Shown in pieces: positions 18,246-26,107 of a stretch of 64,000 nucleotides of DNA. Every line of letters begins with the position of its first letter. Position 1 is the first letter of the stretch. The translations under genes were made by a program, and so were the position numbers. The notes under the pieces are model-generated. The model saw nothing but the letters and a program-made list of their open reading frames with translations, did no database searches and was not told the origin of the DNA. The DNA is taken from assembly GCA_027492735.1 (NCBI GenBank), contig JAPUEE010000011.1:1-64000 (forward strand). The letters are read 5' to 3'. Origin of the DNA: Candidatus Saccharimonadota bacterium (GTDB lineage: Bacteria > Patescibacteriota > Saccharimonadia > Saccharimonadales > Saccharimonadaceae).

Positions 18246-18707
18246 ATGGCGAAGAAACAATATGATTTAACGATACATGGTAAGCGTGAGCTTGAAAACG
18301 AACTGAAAGATTTGGTTGGTAGCCGTAGTGCGATTGCTGATCGCATCGCCGAGGCTCGATCCTTTGGTGATCTGAGTGAAAATGCTGAATATTCAGCTGC
18401 TCGCGAGGAGCAGGCCCGAGTTGAGAGCCGCATTGCTGAGATTGAGGAGATTTTGTCGAGTGCAGAAATTATCGAGGCTGACAAAACTGATGGCGAAGTA
18501 GGCCTCGGTGATACTGTCGTATTGAAATCGGGCCGATCGACGAATGAGTATGTATTGGTCGGTGCTGTCGAGGCTGACCCAGCTAATGGCAAAATTAGCA
18601 ACGAGAGCCCCCTAGGTGCTCAACTCATCGGCAAAAAAGTTGGCAACAAAGTCTCTATTGAAACGCCAAAAGGTGAGAAGACCTTTGAAGTGCTAGAGAT
18701 TAAATAA
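18246..18707 (+). CDS. greA: transcription elongation factor GreA
   Basis: 153 residues: N-terminal coiled coil with ELENELKDLV, the tip ARSFGDLSENAEYSAAREEQ carrying the acidic pair used for transcript cleavage in backtracked RNA polymerase, then the FKBP-like C-terminal domain (GDTVVLKSG, SPLGAQLIGKKVGNKVSIETP). AAAGGAGG gives a full Shine-Dalgarno, unlike many neighbours. It is 40 bp after proS. Confidence 0.97.
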   Translation: MAKKQYDLTIHGKRELENELKDLVGSRSAIADRIAEARSFGDLSENAEYSAAREEQARVESRIAEIEEILSSAEIIEADKTDGEVGLGDTVVLKSGRSTNEYVLVGAVEADPANGKISNESPLGAQLIGKKVGNKVSIETPKGEKTFEVLEIK

Positions 18708-18721
18708 ATCATAATCTATCG

Positions 18722-18950
18722 ATGAATCACGAAACAGGAGAGAGTATCCAACTGCCGGTATTTAGTGGTAGTGAGCCACAATTTTTGGCACAATTATTGG
18801 AACTTGCAGATCAAAGAGTCGATAACCAGGTTTGGTATGCTGTCGAACGACAGGGTGGCGCGGCGCGTACGATCTGCTCTGGGTGATTCTAGTAGTGGGC
18901 GACAGGGTCGACGACACTACTCTAATTCTCATCACAGACGTCGTCGCTAG
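18722..18950 (+). pseudogene. possible frameshifted small gene
   Basis: An ATG at 18722 opens 54 codons ending in TGA at 18886 (ends ...YAVERQGGAARTICSG). The +1 frame across the same place continues as RRVRSALGDSSSGRQGRR, then a His/Arg-rich tail to TAG at 18950. A single-base shift near 18850-18870 would fuse them into a roughly 75-residue protein with a basic RNA/DNA-binding-like tail. Its end overlaps the convergent regulator gene. Either a broken gene, a sequencing error or a chance ORF. Confidence 0.3.
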
Positions 18951-19359
18951 ATTTTTTATTTGAACATGCTTCACACAGGCCGAATAGTTCAAAATGATGA
19001 TCGGTGATAGTGTAATTATGTTTTTTAGCGATAATGCTGATGAGCTGCTCGAGCTCGGGCGTATCAATAGCGATAAGTTCGTGACATTTAGTACACTGCA
19101 AATGATGATGGTGAGGCTTGAAAGGATCTGCTAGCTCGTAACGCTTTTTCCAGCCAATGTGAACGATATCTATAATATGCAGCTGTTCGTACAGCTCTAG
19201 CGTGCGGTATATGCTGGTTCGATCGGTTCCGGGAGCTAGCGCGAGGAGCCGTTGAAGCGATAATGGCTCGTCCGCTTGCTGTAATGCGGTAAACACTTGT
19301 CGCCGAGGATTTGTGAGCCGATTACCGCTGGTGCGAAGGAGTTCTTCGAGATGTTCCAT
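18922..19359 (-). CDS. Fur-family metalloregulator, possibly Nur-like
   Basis: 145 residues. The winged-helix domain has RLTNPRRQVFTAL and TDRTSIYRTLELYEQLHII, and the dimerisation domain has the metal-site HHHHLQCTKCHELIAID plus C-terminal LCEAC, giving two C-x-x-C pairs for a structural zinc. Fur homologues sense Fe, Zn, Mn, Ni or peroxide. The intergenic palindrome contains TTGCAA-N5-TTGCAA, the form of the nickel-responsive Nur box described in Streptomyces, so nickel sensing is possible. Divergent from the four-gene operon, with which it shares the operator. Confidence 0.88.
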   Translation of the reverse strand: MEHLEELLRTSGNRLTNPRRQVFTALQQADEPLSLQRLLALAPGTDRTSIYRTLELYEQLHIIDIVHIGWKKRYELADPFKPHHHHLQCTKCHELIAIDTPELEQLISIIAKKHNYTITDHHFELFGLCEACSNKKSSDDVCDEN

Positions 19360-19374
19360 GTAGCAATTATACTA

Positions 19375-19399
19375 CTTATTGCAACATATTTGCAATAAG
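19375..19399. promoter_or_regulatory. palindromic operator over two divergent -35 boxes
   Basis: CTTATTGCAA (19375-19384), 5 bp, TTGCAATAAG (19390-19399) is a perfect inverted repeat. The rightward promoter uses TTGCAA 19390-19395 as -35 with TATAGT 19413-19418 (17 bp). The leftward promoter uses the complement of the same hexamer with TATAAT at 19366-19371 (18 bp). A bound dimer would occlude both. Both genes start 6-8 nt after their -10 box. Confidence 0.75.
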
Positions 19400-19426
19400 C
19401 AAGGTCGATAGGTATAGTTATAAGTC

Positions 19427-20368
19427 ATGAGAATTGCATTTGTAGGAAAGGGTGGCAGCGGCAAGACCACCGTTAGTTCACTTTTTATCCGTAGACTTGC
19501 CGAGACGGGCCGCCAAGTGGTTGCTATCGATGCGGATATCAACCAACACCTAGGGGCTGCGCTGGGATTGCATGATGACGATATTCGCTCACTCCCTACG
19601 CTGGGATACAATCTAGATGATATCAAGCGCTATCTAAAAGGTGATAACGAGCGTATCGAATCGCTCGATCTATTCCTCAAGTCGACACCTCCAGCCAGGG
19701 GTTCGCGTCTACTCCGCGCGGGCGAGCCAAACCCCATATTTGACACATACAGTACTGTAGTAAAAGGCGTTCGGCTGATGTCGACGGGTCTTTATGACGA
19801 GCAGGATATTGGCGTACGTTGCTATCATGGCAAGCAGGGTAGTGCGGAGATAGTGCTCAATCACCTACTAGATGGCGAGGATGAGTTTGTAGCGGTTGAC
19901 CTAACTGCCGGAGCGGACTCATTCGCATCGGGTATATTTTTGAAGTTTGACATGACGTTCCTCATAGCTGAGCCGACGACGAAAAGTCTCGGAGTCTATG
20001 CTCAGTACAAACAGTATGCGGCAAGTCATAACATCGCGGTACGCGTGATTGGCAATAAAGTGGAAGACGAAGATGACGAGCAATTTATTCGGCAGCATGT
20101 AGGCGATGACTATTTTGGTACTATGGGGCGGTCGCGCTATGTCAAGCAGATGGAACGTGGCGAAATTTTGCCTCTCGGCGAGTTGGAGCCAGCTAATCTG
20201 CGTACACTTGATGACATGATAGCGTATGCACAACGGGCCACGAGAGACTGGAAAACGTACCACAAAAATAGTATTCGGATTCATACCAAAAAAGCTGAGC
20301 AAGAATCGGATGCAGTAAAGCGAACCAAGTTGCTACAGCAGATTGACGAGCAGTTTATCTATGAGTAA
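19427..20368 (+). CDS. CooC/MinD-like deviant Walker A ATPase
   Basis: 313 residues. FVGKGGSGKTTVSSLFIRRL is a deviant Walker A (KGGxGKTT), ADINQHL follows as in CooC/MinD proteins, and FVAVDLTAGADSFASG is the switch II/Walker B region. CooC-type ATPases help insert nickel into CO dehydrogenase, while other SIMIBI relatives load metals or move proteins. The C-terminal 45 residues are Lys-rich and helical. First gene of an overlapping four-gene operon under the palindromic operator. No CODH gene is seen nearby. Confidence 0.8.
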   Translation: MRIAFVGKGGSGKTTVSSLFIRRLAETGRQVVAIDADINQHLGAALGLHDDDIRSLPTLGYNLDDIKRYLKGDNERIESLDLFLKSTPPARGSRLLRAGEPNPIFDTYSTVVKGVRLMSTGLYDEQDIGVRCYHGKQGSAEIVLNHLLDGEDEFVAVDLTAGADSFASGIFLKFDMTFLIAEPTTKSLGVYAQYKQYAASHNIAVRVIGNKVEDEDDEQFIRQHVGDDYFGTMGRSRYVKQMERGEILPLGELEPANLRTLDDMIAYAQRATRDWKTYHKNSIRIHTKKAEQESDAVKRTKLLQQIDEQFIYE

Positions 20369-21386
20369 TCCGTATGCAGCTACTGCGCAGCAGAATGTTG
20401 GACCGTATAGGCTCGACAGGGGACTGAATCGACATGTGGACCATACACCGCTCCTGCGCGAGCTGTTAGATCCTTCCTTACTGGCCGATTATCCGTCACG
20501 TCCTATTGCTGAGTTGGTCGATGCTTTGGCGCAGTATCATGACGTTTTGCCAGAGCAGATCGTAGTCGGAGCAGGCTGTCAGGAATTGATACAGCTGATT
20601 ATGGCAAATCTTGAGACGCAGCAAGAAGTGTTGCTTACTACGGCTACCTATGATTTTTATGAAGTTGCTGCACGGACTTGCGGCCGCATGGTCAAAAAAG
20701 TGACAACCGATCCGCTCGTCTCGCCACTCTTTGCTATGACTGGTGCGCTTGAGCCAACAACGGGCGCAGTAATAGTTGACTCGCCCTCTAACCCGATGGG
20801 AGTAAGTGTTCGTCTGCACGAGGTGGAGCATTTTGCTCGTACGTCGGACACACTGCTCGTAGTCGACGAAGAATATGTTGAATATGGCGCTAAAAGCTGT
20901 ATCGGCGTAGCAAAGACCACCGATACTGTTGTCGTGCTGAGGAGCTTTAGCAAATGGGCTGGACTACCTGGGGTGCGAGTTGGTTATGCAGTAGCTCCTC
21001 GGCGGATTGCTGGGCGACTTCGTGCTATGCAGGCCGAATTTCCTATTAGCGGCATGAGCGCTGAACTCGCAAAACGTGCGATTACACACAAGACAGCATT
21101 GTTGAATGATATGGGTACGATGCATAGCGACAAGCAGTGGCTAGTAGATACGTTAAGCGCTGTACCTGGGCTGATCGTCCATAGCGGCAGCGTACCGTTT
21201 GTGGTATTTCGTCATTCGGGCGGCGATACGGAAGAGCTTCATGTACGACTGCGAGAGCAGGGTATTTACACAAAACTTGTGTCGGTCAATGACGTAGCGT
21301 GGATTCGCATGACAGTAGCACTTCACGAAGACAATAAACAGATCGTACAGCATATAAGGAGCGCGGCACATGGCCTATCTCGATGA
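20361..21386 (+). CDS. HisC/CobD-like PLP-dependent aminotransferase
   Basis: 341 residues from an ATG that overlaps the previous stop by 8 bp. Fold-type I markers: QIVVGAGCQELIQLI (phosphate-binding loop), VIVDSPSNPMGVSV (N-P pair), LLVVDEEYVEYG (the Asp to pyridine N), RSFSKWAGLPGVRVGY with the Schiff-base Lys. Closest in pattern to histidinol-phosphate aminotransferase and threonine-phosphate decarboxylase, but no histidine or cobalamin genes surround it. Probably acts on an amino acid or keto acid for the operon's product. Confidence 0.85.
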   Translation: MSNPYAATAQQNVGPYRLDRGLNRHVDHTPLLRELLDPSLLADYPSRPIAELVDALAQYHDVLPEQIVVGAGCQELIQLIMANLETQQEVLLTTATYDFYEVAARTCGRMVKKVTTDPLVSPLFAMTGALEPTTGAVIVDSPSNPMGVSVRLHEVEHFARTSDTLLVVDEEYVEYGAKSCIGVAKTTDTVVVLRSFSKWAGLPGVRVGYAVAPRRIAGRLRAMQAEFPISGMSAELAKRAITHKTALLNDMGTMHSDKQWLVDTLSAVPGLIVHSGSVPFVVFRHSGGDTEELHVRLREQGIYTKLVSVNDVAWIRMTVALHEDNKQIVQHIRSAAHGLSR

Positions 21387-22638
21387 TATTCGCACGCAAA
21401 ACGAGCGTATTGGCGGCCAGCTGGGGGCAGGTGATCGAGCATTTTTTGCGCTGCTTCACCACATGAAGGACGGCGAGGGTTTCATTAATGTTAGTTCTGC
21501 GAGTGATATGCATGTATGGCAAGAAGCGTGGCCTGCAGACATGGCGGAACGATTCACGACTGATTTTTCAGTGACTGCGGTGACAAAATATCCTCCGCTG
21601 GTCACGAGGCACGAGTTTATGGAGCGAGAAGCTGCCGAGTTTCTTTCGAGTGTGTTTAGCAAAGACCTTAACCCAACCGAGGTGTTTCTCACAAACGGTA
21701 GCCTCACTTCGCCGTCGATGCTCATGACGGCTTCACCGCGTCCAGTTGTCATATATGCTGACAAATGCTATACCAGCCAGGTAGCTGCTTTTCGTGCTGC
21801 TGGTAAACAGCCTATAGCCTGCCAGACTGATGTGCACGGGCGGCTCCTGCTCGATGATCTCGAAACACTGCTGGCTGGACGAGACGAGGCGGTTGCATAT
21901 ATTTACCTCCATCATAACGAAGGGGCGGCTGCCACGGTAGACTATCTTGACGCGCTCTATGAGTTATGCGAACGCTATGATACCTATCTGCAATACGATG
22001 CTGATGTTATGGCGACACGTCACAGAGACGATGTCGATCCGCTGCTCGCACTCGATAGGCGCTATCGGTCGCGCTTTATCGTGCTAATAAATTTTTCCAA
22101 AGAATTTAATGCTCCGGCCATTCGTATTGGCCTAGCTATTGGCAACAAAGACCTTGTGTACGAAATGAAGGTCTACCAAAAACACAAGATAGAAATGCTA
22201 CCGCTGCCGAGCATTGCGATTGCCAAGTTACTGCTATGCGAAGCGGATGTGCATCGGTCGGCTGCGATATTTCGTCAGCGCATGCAGCAGTTGGTGGCTC
22301 ACCTGCAGAGACGTGGATGGGAAACGCGCGGACCAGACGTTGGTATCAACTGTTTTGTGCCAGTGCCAGATAGTTTTCTAGAGGCGAAACAGGTATCTCC
22401 GGGTGCGCTGTTTAGCTACTACATTATGAAGCAAGCCAAGGTGATGGTTCGGCCTGGCGTGCTGCATGGTGAGGCGCTGAGACATACGGTGCGGTTTGTG
22501 GTGTCGCCGACATACGACGAGATCGATGAAGTGTTTGCACGATTTGACACGGCCGGAATCCATGGCAACATGTCCATGCCAGAAGGGTTGGAGGACGCAT
22601 TTATGCAGGAGGCTGCGCCTTATGCTCACGAAGCCTAG
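21370..22638 (+). CDS. second fold-type I PLP enzyme
   Basis: 422 residues with AAGGAG before an ATG overlapping the previous gene by 17 bp. VFLTNGSLTSPSMLM, YIYLHHNEGAAATVDYLDAL and LQYDADVMATRH occupy the cofactor-loop and Asp positions, and INFSKEFNAPAIRIGLAIG carries the Schiff-base Lys. It is more divergent than the preceding enzyme, and I cannot name a substrate. Two distinct PLP enzymes side by side in a genome of this type, usually poor in amino-acid metabolism, suggest a dedicated small-molecule pathway. Confidence 0.75.
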   Translation: MAYLDDIRTQNERIGGQLGAGDRAFFALLHHMKDGEGFINVSSASDMHVWQEAWPADMAERFTTDFSVTAVTKYPPLVTRHEFMEREAAEFLSSVFSKDLNPTEVFLTNGSLTSPSMLMTASPRPVVIYADKCYTSQVAAFRAAGKQPIACQTDVHGRLLLDDLETLLAGRDEAVAYIYLHHNEGAAATVDYLDALYELCERYDTYLQYDADVMATRHRDDVDPLLALDRRYRSRFIVLINFSKEFNAPAIRIGLAIGNKDLVYEMKVYQKHKIEMLPLPSIAIAKLLLCEADVHRSAAIFRQRMQQLVAHLQRRGWETRGPDVGINCFVPVPDSFLEAKQVSPGALFSYYIMKQAKVMVRPGVLHGEALRHTVRFVVSPTYDEIDEVFARFDTAGIHGNMSMPEGLEDAFMQEAAPYAHEA

Positions 22639-23668
22639 CGCTATTCCTGTTTCCTCGGCAGATCGTGTGCTAGCGGCTGCACGTGAACTTCTATTGGATG
22701 TGCCAAGCGGTCTGACTACTGCTAGGTCTCCAGCGCCTCTAGATGATATTCTGGCGATTCTATTGTCTACCAGGTATCGACGATCGTCGCTAGCCCCAGC
22801 GAGCCAGCAAAAGATACGGGCGTATGTCGAGCGTCAGATGACGGATAGGCTACCAATACGATGCTATGTGATGGTGGGAGGCTACAAACAAGCCCGGCTT
22901 TCGTCGGCACCGCATATTGATTGGGCTGAGGTGTTTAATGTGCGCCATATGCTACGGCTGGCGTGCGAATTGGCTGCTCGCTATGAGTCTGGCGTTGAGC
23001 TGGTGTGGCGGTTTCATACGAGCATTCTCTCGCAGATCAACAACTATTCACTCAGTGATTTTGAGGTGTACGCCCAGGAGTTTGACCGATTGCTTGCTCA
23101 CTATGCGCAGTGTCTAGGTGACATACCGATCACGATGCGTATCGAGTATGCGGGCAACCCACGAGAGGGTGAGTCATATGTAGGGCAGCTTGAGCCTCAG
23201 CTAGAGCAGTATGAACGATGGTTCGATGGGCTAGGCGAGCATGAACAAGCTCAGTTGATTGCAAAGTCGTGGCGTAACATAAAATGGGAGGGGCGCGAGC
23301 AATGGGCTGGACTGAACGAGCACGAAAAATACGACAAAGCAAAGCGTGCTTTGCTGCTCGATAAGGCCTTTCTCGATAATGATCCCATTACCTCGACGCC
23401 GACGTGCGAGACGGGCATAACCATCTACTCGCGTGCGGGCGGCGCGCACGATAGATTGCAGTACGGAGGCTGCTCAGCTTCATCGGTACAATTTTGGGCG
23501 GGCGAGGGTGTATTTGAGGTACGCACAGAGCGTGTTGTGCCAGTTATCATGCCATATTCGAGTAACACTCGTATAGTTCGCGAGCAGATTGCTATACCGG
23601 ATACGACCAGTATAGCCCCGACACTTACGCACGTTTTCTGGTATCAAGACACAGGATACACTAAATAA
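22622..23668 (+). CDS. unknown enzyme, possibly DIT1/PvcA isonitrile-synthase-like
   Basis: 348 residues from an ATG with AGGAGG upstream, overlapping the previous gene by 17 bp. The order LPIRCYVMVGGYKQ, APHIDWAEVFNVRHMLRLA, LAARYESGVELVW, then a long helical region and a C-terminal HDRLQYGGCSASSVQFWAGE recalls the DIT1/PvcA family (strand with a Lys, P-D-x-A-E, Y-x-P-G, C-terminal W-H-x-x-x-x-x-D-G). This is a weak by-eye match without alignment. It is the last gene of the operator-controlled operon; a ZIP transporter follows. Confidence 0.35.
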   Translation: MLTKPSAIPVSSADRVLAAARELLLDVPSGLTTARSPAPLDDILAILLSTRYRRSSLAPASQQKIRAYVERQMTDRLPIRCYVMVGGYKQARLSSAPHIDWAEVFNVRHMLRLACELAARYESGVELVWRFHTSILSQINNYSLSDFEVYAQEFDRLLAHYAQCLGDIPITMRIEYAGNPREGESYVGQLEPQLEQYERWFDGLGEHEQAQLIAKSWRNIKWEGREQWAGLNEHEKYDKAKRALLLDKAFLDNDPITSTPTCETGITIYSRAGGAHDRLQYGGCSASSVQFWAGEGVFEVRTERVVPVIMPYSSNTRIVREQIAIPDTTSIAPTLTHVFWYQDTGYTK

Positions 23669-23697: not shown

Positions 23698-24522
23698 ATG
23701 GAACTACTCACAGTATTATTTTGGACATTGGTCGGCAGCGTATTCTCGCTTGTCGGTGGTATTGCACTGCTAGGCAATAAAAAGTTGCGTGATATGGCGA
23801 TTCGTTACGGTTTGCCGTTCGGTGCTGGAGCACTGCTCGCGGCAGCGTTTCTGAGCTTGCTACCCGAGGCGTTTGAAGGTAGCGATATTCATACTGTGAC
23901 ATTGTATGCACTGGGCGGGTTTCTGGTCTTTTTTGTCTTGGAGCGCTGTTTGGGTTGGTTTCATCATCACGAATCACATCACCATGACAAAGTACATGGT
24001 CGGCGCAACAAGACACACCAAGCCTTGGTAATTATCGGTGATACGTTACATAATGCGATTGATGGTGTGGCGATCGGCGCAGCATTCCTGGTTAGTCCGG
24101 CTGCCGGTATCGGCACAGCCCTCGCGGTAGCTGCGCACGAAATTCCACAGGAAATTGGTGATTTCAGTATCCTGCTCGGTAAAGGTATGCGTCCGCGCAA
24201 TGTTATTCTAGTGAATCTCTTTAGTGCGCTGGCGACGGTGGTGACTGCACTCGTAACCTATCTGTTGGGTGGTGTGATCGAATTCAATCCCGCGTTGTTG
24301 CTAGCAGTGGCTGCTGGTTTCTTTATCTATATTGCAGCTAGCGATATCATTCCGGACATTCACGAAAAGTCACGTAGCGAGGGTAATGCGCAGTCTATTA
24401 TGCTACTCATCGGTGTAATTGCTATCGGCTGCATTATCAGCCTCACGCCACATAGTCACGAGGCGACAGATCGTCATGATGATCGTGAGCATGGCGTCGT
24501 TCGACACACGTACGACACGTAG
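23698..24522 (+). CDS. ZIP-family divalent metal transporter
   Basis: 274 residues with about eight transmembrane helices. The metal path is visible as HNAIDGVAIGAAF in TM4 and AAHEIPQEIGDFSILL in TM5 (H-N-x-x-D-G and H-E-x-x-x-E), and the TM3-4 loop and C-terminus are His-rich (FHHHESHHHDK). ZIP proteins import Zn, Fe, Mn or other divalent metals. TATAAT ends 9 nt before the ATG, so it has its own promoter, but its place after the putative metal-regulated operon suggests a shared theme. Confidence 0.9.
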   Translation: MELLTVLFWTLVGSVFSLVGGIALLGNKKLRDMAIRYGLPFGAGALLAAAFLSLLPEAFEGSDIHTVTLYALGGFLVFFVLERCLGWFHHHESHHHDKVHGRRNKTHQALVIIGDTLHNAIDGVAIGAAFLVSPAAGIGTALAVAAHEIPQEIGDFSILLGKGMRPRNVILVNLFSALATVVTALVTYLLGGVIEFNPALLLAVAAGFFIYIAASDIIPDIHEKSRSEGNAQSIMLLIGVIAIGCIISLTPHSHEATDRHDDREHGVVRHTYDT

Positions 24523-24586: not shown

Positions 24587-26107
24587 ATGGCAACCTTACA
24601 AGATTTTCGCGATGAGCGACTAAAGAAACTAGAGAAACTACGTGAGATAGGTCTGGATCCTTATCCAGCAAAAGCAGCACGAACGGTTTCTGCTCATGAT
24701 GTGACAAAGAAGTTCGACGAATTGAACGGTACTGAACAAACAGTAGCTGGTCGGATTGCAAGCATTCGCAAATTCGGTAAGATTGCGTTTATCGTAGTAC
24801 GCGACCAGAGCGGCGATTTGCAGTTATTCCTTCGTTTGGGCGAGGTAGAATCAACAACAGCAGAATTATCATTGATCGGTATAGAGGATCTCAATTTGCT
24901 CGATACGGGTGATTTTGTTGAGGCAACTGGCGAAGTTATCAAAACCCAAACGGGCGAGATTAGCCTAGGGGTTAAAAGATTACGATTGCTGACCAAGGCG
25001 CTACGGCCGATGCCGAGCCGTCAGGATGGCTTTACGAACAAAGAAGAACGTTTCCGCAGGCGCTATGTTGATATGAACGTCAATCCAGAAGTTCGCGAAC
25101 GTTTTGAGCGCCGCAGTAAATTCTGGCGAGCCACCAGGCAATTTCTCGAAAACGAAGATTTTATAGAGGTGAACAATACAGTGCTCGAAGCTACGGCTGG
25201 TGGTGCTGACGCGAATCCATTTGTGACACATATGGATGCGCTCGATCAAGATTTCTATTTGCGTATTAGTCACGAGTTACCACTAAAGCGATTGTTAGTC
25301 GCGGGATTTGAAAAAGTTTTTGACATTGGCGCGCGTTTCCGTAATGAAAATTACAGCGACGAACATCTGCCCGAGCACAACGCAATGGAATGGTACTGGG
25401 CTTATGCGGACTGGCAAGATGGTATGGAATTGACCGAGCGGATGATTCGCTTTGTCTGTGATCAGACCTGGGGTACGCGCACATTCACACTGGCTGATGG
25501 TCAAGAAGTTGACTTTGGCGAAGACAACGAACATTTTCCAAAGATTAATTTTGTCGAAGTGCTCGCGAATGAATTCAATATCGATGTGTTCGAATCTTCG
25601 ATGCAAGATATCCAGGCTGCACTGCGACAGAACGGACTAGAAGTAGAAAAAATCGATAATCGCATTCGTAGCCTCGATAAACTATGGAAAAAATATCGAA
25701 AAATGATCGCTGGACCAGTCTTTTTGGTGGGAATCCCGGTATTTATGCAGCCCCTCGCCAAAAAACAAGCCGGTGATCCGCGTATGAGCGAGCAATTTAA
25801 CCTCGTATTTGGCGGCAGTGAGATGTGCAAGGCTTTCTCTGAGCTGAACGATCCACTCGATCAACTAGAACGTTTTCGTGAACAACAGGCTATGCGCGAC
25901 GGGGGTGATAACGAGGCACAAATGCTCGATATCGATTTTGTTGAGGCGCTCGAATACGGTATGCCACCAGCGTGTGGTCTGGGCTATAGTGAACGAGTAT
26001 TTTGGAGCCTCGAAGGTATAACTGCGCGTGAAGGCGTGCCATTCCCACAACTCCGCCGTGAAATTGATCAAACAACGCGCGACATTTATCCAGACCTCAC
26101 TATTTAA
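24587..26107 (+). CDS. lysS: lysyl-tRNA synthetase, class II
   Basis: 506 residues. N-terminal OB-fold anticodon domain (VAGRIASIRKFGKIAFIVVRD), motif 1 region RRRYVDMNVNPEVRERF, motif 2 FDIGARFRNENYSDEHLPEHN, and motif 3 GLGYSERVFWSLEGITARE. The family motif LKRLLVAGFEKVFDIG is present. TATAAT ends about 8 nt before the ATG. Motif 3 normally has G-x-G-x-D-R; here it reads GLGYSER, a deviation at the Asp-Arg pair. Confidence 0.9.
   Translation: MATLQDFRDERLKKLEKLREIGLDPYPAKAARTVSAHDVTKKFDELNGTEQTVAGRIASIRKFGKIAFIVVRDQSGDLQLFLRLGEVESTTAELSLIGIEDLNLLDTGDFVEATGEVIKTQTGEISLGVKRLRLLTKALRPMPSRQDGFTNKEERFRRRYVDMNVNPEVRERFERRSKFWRATRQFLENEDFIEVNNTVLEATAGGADANPFVTHMDALDQDFYLRISHELPLKRLLVAGFEKVFDIGARFRNENYSDEHLPEHNAMEWYWAYADWQDGMELTERMIRFVCDQTWGTRTFTLADGQEVDFGEDNEHFPKINFVEVLANEFNIDVFESSMQDIQAALRQNGLEVEKIDNRIRSLDKLWKKYRKMIAGPVFLVGIPVFMQPLAKKQAGDPRMSEQFNLVFGGSEMCKAFSELNDPLDQLERFREQQAMRDGGDNEAQMLDIDFVEALEYGMPPACGLGYSERVFWSLEGITAREGVPFPQLRREIDQTTRDIYPDLTI

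Follow-up and report, generated by a model that had tools for sequence, protein, structure and literature searches.

A candidate zinc-starvation operon with exchangeable enzyme cassettes behind a conserved Fur-type operator in Saccharibacteria

We analyzed a stretch of 64,000 nucleotides (hereafter the window) from a Candidatus Saccharimonadota bacterium (assembly GCA_027492735.1, contig JAPUEE010000011.1, forward strand 1–64,000; genome 817 kb). It contains a module in which a Fur-family regulator gene (fur) is divergent from an operon for a CooC-type ATPase, two pyridoxal phosphate enzymes (PLP1 and PLP2), an isonitrile-synthase-fold protein (gene 4) and, probably, a ZIP-family transporter (Table 1). 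On balance, we favor a Zur-like zinc-starvation operon, in which the cassette enzymes would probably make a small zinc ligand; this ligand is put forward as a hypothesis. Relatives suggest a broader and distinctly more tentative picture, in which Patescibacteria would carry a modular zinc island. Here the Fur-family regulator, an operator with the core TGCAA-N5-TTGCA and a zinc ATPase of a new, CooC-like class with a Cys2His2 dimer site would be combined with interchangeable ligand cassettes, that of the window being of the isonitrile type. The first-pass annotation of this DNA had proposed that metal controls a pathway here, possibly one leading to a metal ligand, and the present analysis agrees with it, the ligand keeping its hypothetical status.

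The operator is the palindrome CTTATTGCAA-CATAT-TTGCAATAAG, whose 10-nucleotide (nt) arms are 100% complementary and are separated by a 5-nt spacer. On re-reading, both the perfect inverted repeat with TTGCAA-N5-TTGCAA and its overlap with two -35 boxes, as first annotated, proved exact. The sequence TTATTGCAAN5TTGCAATAA occurs once in the window, where 0.03 occurrences are expected even with three mismatches allowed, and the exact TTGCAAN5TTGCAA is a single copy in the whole genome. When one mismatch is allowed, the genome-wide total of TTGCAAN5TTGCAA sites equals that of the backward-read control. The self-complementary TTGCAA at 19390–19395 is the predicted -35 element of both divergent promoters: on the minus strand it is read from 19395 to 19390, with a spacer of 18 before the TATAAT of fur, and on the plus strand it has a spacer of 17 before the TATAGT of the operon. 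Since the -35 element is common to both promoters and lies inside the palindrome, a bound dimer would close both. The predicted -10 elements end 6–8 nt from the ATG codons (19359–19371 and 19413–19427); thus, the fur and operon transcripts are both predicted to be nearly leaderless, that of fur starting on its ATG or immediately beside it.

The operator was then compared among 26 Patescibacteria loci. In 23 of them, the 150 bp preceding the ATPase gene contain TGCAA-N5-TTGCA with one mismatch or none, compared with 1.5% of random windows. A leave-one-out position weight matrix (PWM) scan of whole loci places the best site directly upstream of the ATPase gene or the fur–ATPase unit in 26 of 26, with the consensus TTATTGCAAnaatnTTGCAATAA; in L062 and L066, fur precedes the ATPase gene and is co-directional with it, and the best site is upstream of fur. 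The 26 loci are related by descent and are not 26 independent events. Nevertheless, ATPases that are 32–50% identical leave little unselected DNA similarity. A Fur homologue adjoins the ATPase gene in nearly all complete Patescibacteria loci, mostly divergently, as had been described for the window. Therefore, the proposed control unit survives the comparison with relatives, in which the operator is conserved with fur and the ATPase gene; of the synteny looked for, this core is kept, and the full gene order is not, since the enzymes are swapped. A chance palindrome is ruled out by the genome and window counts and by the conservation across loci. Extra operator-like sites around fur and upstream of the main site in L188 (1770–2480 and 8757) suggest multi-site control of that locus. 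Searches of plasmids and phages returned nothing beyond generic aminotransferases, an ATPase of Nonomuraea and a single weak match for the ATPase.

The best solved relative of the ATPase is CooC (3kje) by both sequence and fold, the latter from a model with a predicted local distance difference test (pLDDT) score of 90, in agreement with the earlier CooC/MinD-like assignment. It is a MinD/NifH-type P-loop ATPase closest to CooC, and it does not carry the CxC metal motif. In CooC, the CxC metal site is formed between subunits. The C-Y-C of CooC aligns with C132-Y133-H134 of the ATPase (codons 19820–19828), CxH is found in 100 of 102 collected homologues, and C132 and H134 are invariant in both aligned homologue sets (A2 and A3). 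By analogy, the Cys-x-His motifs of two subunits probably form a Cys2His2 metal site in the dimer. The ATPase is encoded by 22 of 393 class genomes and is present in other Patescibacteria, and a scan with its alignment found it very widely in Actinobacteria. In the ATPase tree, the PLP-cassette and dehydrogenase loci split from the rest with support of 100/97; thus, a given ATPase type tends to go with a given cassette type. No CO dehydrogenase is encoded among the neighbor genes read, the genome itself not having been searched for one. No Zur-linked CooC-like ATPase has been described as far as a literature search limited to open-access papers reached.

The regulator belongs to the Fur superfamily, as shown by its PF01475 domain and its HHH-type and CxxC motifs, and it is the sole PF01475 protein of its genome. 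Its closest solved relatives are C. jejuni Fur and S. coelicolor Nur (3eyy, third best) and Zur. It scores below the cut-off of every curated Fur, Zur and PerR group model; for example, it reaches 29.7 bits against the Zur model PRK11639, whose cut-off is 167.

Regarding the metal, zinc is favored because Zur-type boxes and ZnuA, ZrgA, CobW and ZIP neighbors occur around the orthologues. The actinobacterial Zur consensus (PMC5472717), with at most two mismatches, is found before 19 of 30 ATPase orthologues outside Streptomyces and in 1.6% of control windows. In Ktedonobacter, ZnuA is divergent from the ATPase gene (9.2e-49), and in Geminicoccaceae the zinc-uptake gene ZrgA is upstream of it (1.1e-51). 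A CobW-type gene lies inside the operon of the Saccharibacterium locus L186. ZIP genes belong to or adjoin seven modules (the window, L064, L067, L179, L182, L187 and L188), and the window protein is a clear member of this family (PF02535, 143 bits; cut-off 35.1). No ZnuA was found in the window's genome. Judged from this gene context, the metal sensed is most likely zinc.

The operon genes are closely packed. The overlaps of 8 bp (ATPase/PLP1), 17 bp (PLP1/PLP2) and 17 bp (PLP2/gene 4), taken from the open reading frame coordinates, agree with those of the four-gene operon first annotated; the gene count does not, as the ZIP gene follows in the same direction after 29 bp and is probably the fifth. 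The scan for terminators and promoters gave no strong reason to split it off, and the corresponding operon of L188 ends in a ZIP that is 59% identical to that of the window.

The two PLP enzymes are different, as had been noted. PLP1 matches the HisC model at 7.9e-55, yet below its cut-off, and a solved HisC at 2e-22, and its relatives are only 24–30% identical and occur in 8 of 380 phylum genomes. PLP2 passes no equivalog cut-off and has no relatives at E<1e-3 in the 294 other genomes of the family. Gene 4, first listed as an unknown enzyme, is corrected here to a PvcA-fold protein: its AlphaFold model (pLDDT 73) superposes on PvcA (3e59) over 273 residues and on PIsnA with Z 17.6, whereas the next-best folds reach a Z of only about 8. 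The protein itself has no Pfam match and does not reach PF05141 by its own score. However, 6 of 18 aligned members of its family match PF05141 weakly and a G413 relative passes the cut-off, and the family is joined to PF05141 via intermediate sequences. PvcA-fold homologues are present in 17 of 393 class genomes, its own included; in the other loci read, they stand apart from the module as orphans. A genome-wide scan with the window protein as query gave no match, and the further PF05141 loci G387, G413 and G821 show no link to the module. Remote PvcA-like stand-alone genes (L019–L035) occur in about 4% of class genomes, and most of their products start MTAQ-YI. Conserved four-gene synteny was not found, the PvcA-fold homologues being orphans, PLP2 being without family relatives and the relatives of PLP1 being sparse.

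In relatives, the same operator is conserved ahead of all of a varied set of cassettes, and biosynthetic enzymes stand behind this metalloregulator-type operator. One Saccharibacterium genome (L123/L173) has the order operator–ATPase–PvcA (PF05141, 4e-17)–YibE_F. An ornithine (Orn)/diaminopimelate (DAP)-decarboxylase-like enzyme is combined with an SbnA-like PALP–rhodanese fusion in L065, L175, L183–L185, L187 and L188, some of these loci adding a SufS-like class V enzyme, and the PALP–rhodanese protein alone is the cassette in L066, L067, L177, L178 and L190. L186 carries an SbnB-like protein, a 440-amino-acid protein and CobW; L180 and L181 carry a dehydrogenase-like protein; and L060, L062, L064, L174, L176 and L182 carry KH_NucS_shadow/SCO5389-type proteins or relatives. 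Proteins that join a cysteine-synthase-type PLP enzyme to a rhodanese domain recur in these operons (L066:5662–7122, L067:5026–6495, L065:490–1815 and L183:11164–12486). KH_NucS_shadow/SCO5389 partners are frequent beside the ATPase (L060:6478–6870, L062:5485–6318, L069:13004–13414 and L118:9081–9563), a pairing that spans Patescibacteria, Actinobacteria and Chloroflexota. In nine Saccharibacteria loci (L064, L174, L176, L182, L183 and L185–L188), the module occupies one chromosomal slot between pth–der and dprA, the latter mostly accompanied by topA; this slot is a hot spot for cassette exchange. The window module lies between greA and lysS (18246–18707 and 24587–26107) and not in the usual slot; thus, it was relocated or separately acquired.

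From these observations we infer the following mechanism. When zinc is sufficient, the metal form of the regulator would bind the palindrome, block the joint -35 element and repress both fur and the operon. Under zinc shortage, the regulator would leave the operator, and the ATPase, the enzymes and ZIP would be derepressed. ZIP would import zinc, and the ATPase would handle or deliver it, holding it at the Cys2His2 site between the subunits. PLP1, PLP2 and the isonitrile-synthase-fold enzyme would probably convert amino acids to a small zinc-binding molecule, acting as a zincophore or an internal zinc buffer. This synthesis is proposed because of the PvcA fold of gene 4, the relative with PvcA and YibE_F and the cassettes with SbnA-, SbnB- and DAP-decarboxylase-like enzymes, and by analogy with Zur-controlled metallophore clusters. 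Metallophore synthesis under Zur is an established type of system (PMC6103462), of which [S,S]-EDDS ([S,S]-ethylenediaminedisuccinate) is a case (PMC4993170).

Several points weigh against this reading, and two rivals name another metal. The regulator carries Glu at the Cys position of Zur and passes no curated Zur model, and its residues do not decide between the metals. ZIP proteins can carry Fe or Mn, and a separate promoter for the window ZIP might exist. The Zur box is found in 0 of 50 Streptomyces-like ATPase loci, which appear to be under a different control; in the Streptomyces orthologues (L071–L149), a conserved GGAGTGGTCTTCTTCAC-like element lies ~60 bp upstream of the ATPase gene. 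An Fe or Mn regulon of Fur/Mur type, in which the regulator senses and ZIP imports that metal, would account for the Glu, for the best model scores being against Fur (far below the cut-off) and for the variable metals of ZIP transporters; the zinc-specific neighbors and the Zur boxes near orthologous ATPases in several phyla make it unlikely. The first-pass annotation had pointed to nickel because the window box equals the Nur-box consensus tTGCaa-N5-ttGCAA (PMC3919588). A Nur-type nickel sensor with an ATPase that loads nickel would also suit the rank of 3eyy among the solved relatives and the nickel enzyme served by CooC proper. We nevertheless depart from nickel and give it little credence: the CYC of CooC is CxH throughout the family, the neighbors of the loci read include ZIP, ZnuA, ZrgA and CobW genes and no nickel gene, and the orthologous ATPases carry Zur-type boxes. 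A single genomic operator with a ZIP in its operon does not resemble a nickel-type regulon either. In a pairwise alignment with 3eyy, the positions of the Nur metal ligands H33, H70 and H86 read Q, I and P, which suggests that several of these ligands are replaced in the window regulator. A search of the genome for nickel superoxide dismutase gave no match and is uninformative, as the same search was also blank in control genomes.

The remaining points concern the enzymes. Several relatives, the KH_NucS_shadow loci, have no biosynthetic enzyme; neither PLP1 nor PLP2 has a counterpart in other cassettes; and the operon shows neither an exporter nor a receptor that would serve a secreted metallophore. 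Gene 4 is remote from PvcA (13% identity in the fold match) and has WRFHT at the SDG/DD position of PvcA relatives, so that it may catalyze something other than isonitrile formation. A serious rival, though not a probable one, keeps zinc control and lets the PLP and PvcA-fold enzymes substitute for zinc-dependent steps or serve in the salvage of amino acids, sulfur or nitrogen while zinc is short. The wide variation of the cassettes, several of them sulfur-like (the PALP–rhodanese fusion and the SufS-like enzyme), the relatives with KH_NucS_shadow proteins alone and an operon without a transporter for a secreted compound all suit it, and Zur regulons commonly include zinc-sparing paralogues (PMC6103462). 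What speaks for a ligand instead is the convergence of metallophore-pathway enzyme types (PvcA, SbnA, SbnB and DAP/Orn decarboxylase) behind the same operator and ATPase. The enzymes might also be clients or substrates of the ATPase as a chaperone or maturase, with no joint pathway, as CooC-type ATPases mature client enzymes and the ATPase tree splits by partner type. However, PLP enzymes need no metal insertion and the partner folds are unrelated, and we regard this as very improbable.

Table 1. Features of the module, with positions in the window and the basis of each assignment.
Feature	Position	Strand	Basis
fur: Fur-family regulator, 145 amino acids, HHHH motif, two CxxC	18922–19359	-	PF01475 2.1e-19
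fur promoter -10 element TATAAT	19366–19371 (read 19371–19366)	-	promoter-like element, sequence
Operator, perfect 10-5-10 inverted repeat, core TTGCAA-N5-TTGCAA	19375–19399	.	sequence; conserved in 26/26 Patescibacteria loci
Operon promoter -10 element TATAGT	19413–19418	+	promoter-like element
CooC-type P-loop ATPase	19427–20368	+	3kje E 2.5e-12; Foldseek 1.9e-11
PLP1, class I/II aminotransferase fold, HisC/CobD-like	20361–21386	+	PF00155 1.4e-34
PLP2, divergent class I/II aminotransferase fold	21370–22638	+	PF00155 5.5e-19
Gene 4, isonitrile-synthase-fold (DIT1_PvcA-like) protein	22622–23668	+	PvcA 3e59 Z 18.2; Foldseek 1.1e-9
ZIP-family metal transporter, probable last operon gene	23698–24522	+	PF02535 1.4e-41

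Patescibacteria are considered to have almost no biosynthesis of their own and to obtain their needs from a host cell, so that a metal-binding molecule made by them would be unexpected. A conserved, metal-controlled operon with swappable cassettes would indicate that zinc is contested, possibly against their own host, and that dedicated chemistry may be made for it. If the modular zinc island is real, it would to our knowledge represent the first case of a metallophore system in the candidate phyla radiation, and the ATPase would be a widespread, unrecognized zinc-starvation protein, Actinobacteria included. The operon also gives the large unnamed CooC-like ATPase family of Actinobacteria a functional context. 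Every part belongs to a known superfamily, and metallophore control of the Zur type is already known; as far as the open-access literature shows, the Patescibacteria operator family, the CxH ATPase with its connection to zinc, and the swapping of biosynthetic cassettes among organisms with a reputation for lacking biosynthesis are new. The module also offers compact, well-defined objects for experiments: a single regulator, an operator of 25 bp and an ATPase whose metal motif consists of two residues.

Finally, we compared the module with known systems. The actinobacterial Zur regulons for [S,S]-EDDS of Amycolatopsis and for coelibactin are alike in the Fur-superfamily repressor, in the short palindromic operator and in the importer that accompanies ligand-synthesis genes (PMC6103462, PMC4993170). 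The window operator has the core TGCAA-N5-TTGCA, whereas theirs is TGANAANNNTTNTCA, and here the CooC-like ATPase is a constant partner and the genome has one operator site. Streptomyces Nur shares the operator consensus; however, its metal ligands are apparently not all kept in the window regulator, and the gene context is of the zinc type. CooC, the nickel ATPase of CO dehydrogenase, is alike in fold, P-loop and motif position, with CxC in place of CxH and 254 residues compared with 313 (the window protein being longer at the C-terminus); the neighbors of the window ATPase are of the zinc type. The staphyloferrin B enzymes SbnA, SbnB and SbnH represent the types found in the cassettes of relatives (L183–L188 and L065), not in the window; the cassettes differ in the fused rhodanese and the SufS-like third enzyme, and all of their enzymes score below curated cut-offs. 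Lastly, gene 4 lacks the SDG motif of the isonitrile synthases PvcA and PIsnA and an adjoining PvcB-type oxygenase, and its identity to them is about 13%, but it shares their fold over the whole domain (Z 17–18) and keeps the Lys, D-x-A-E and Y-x-x-G positions.

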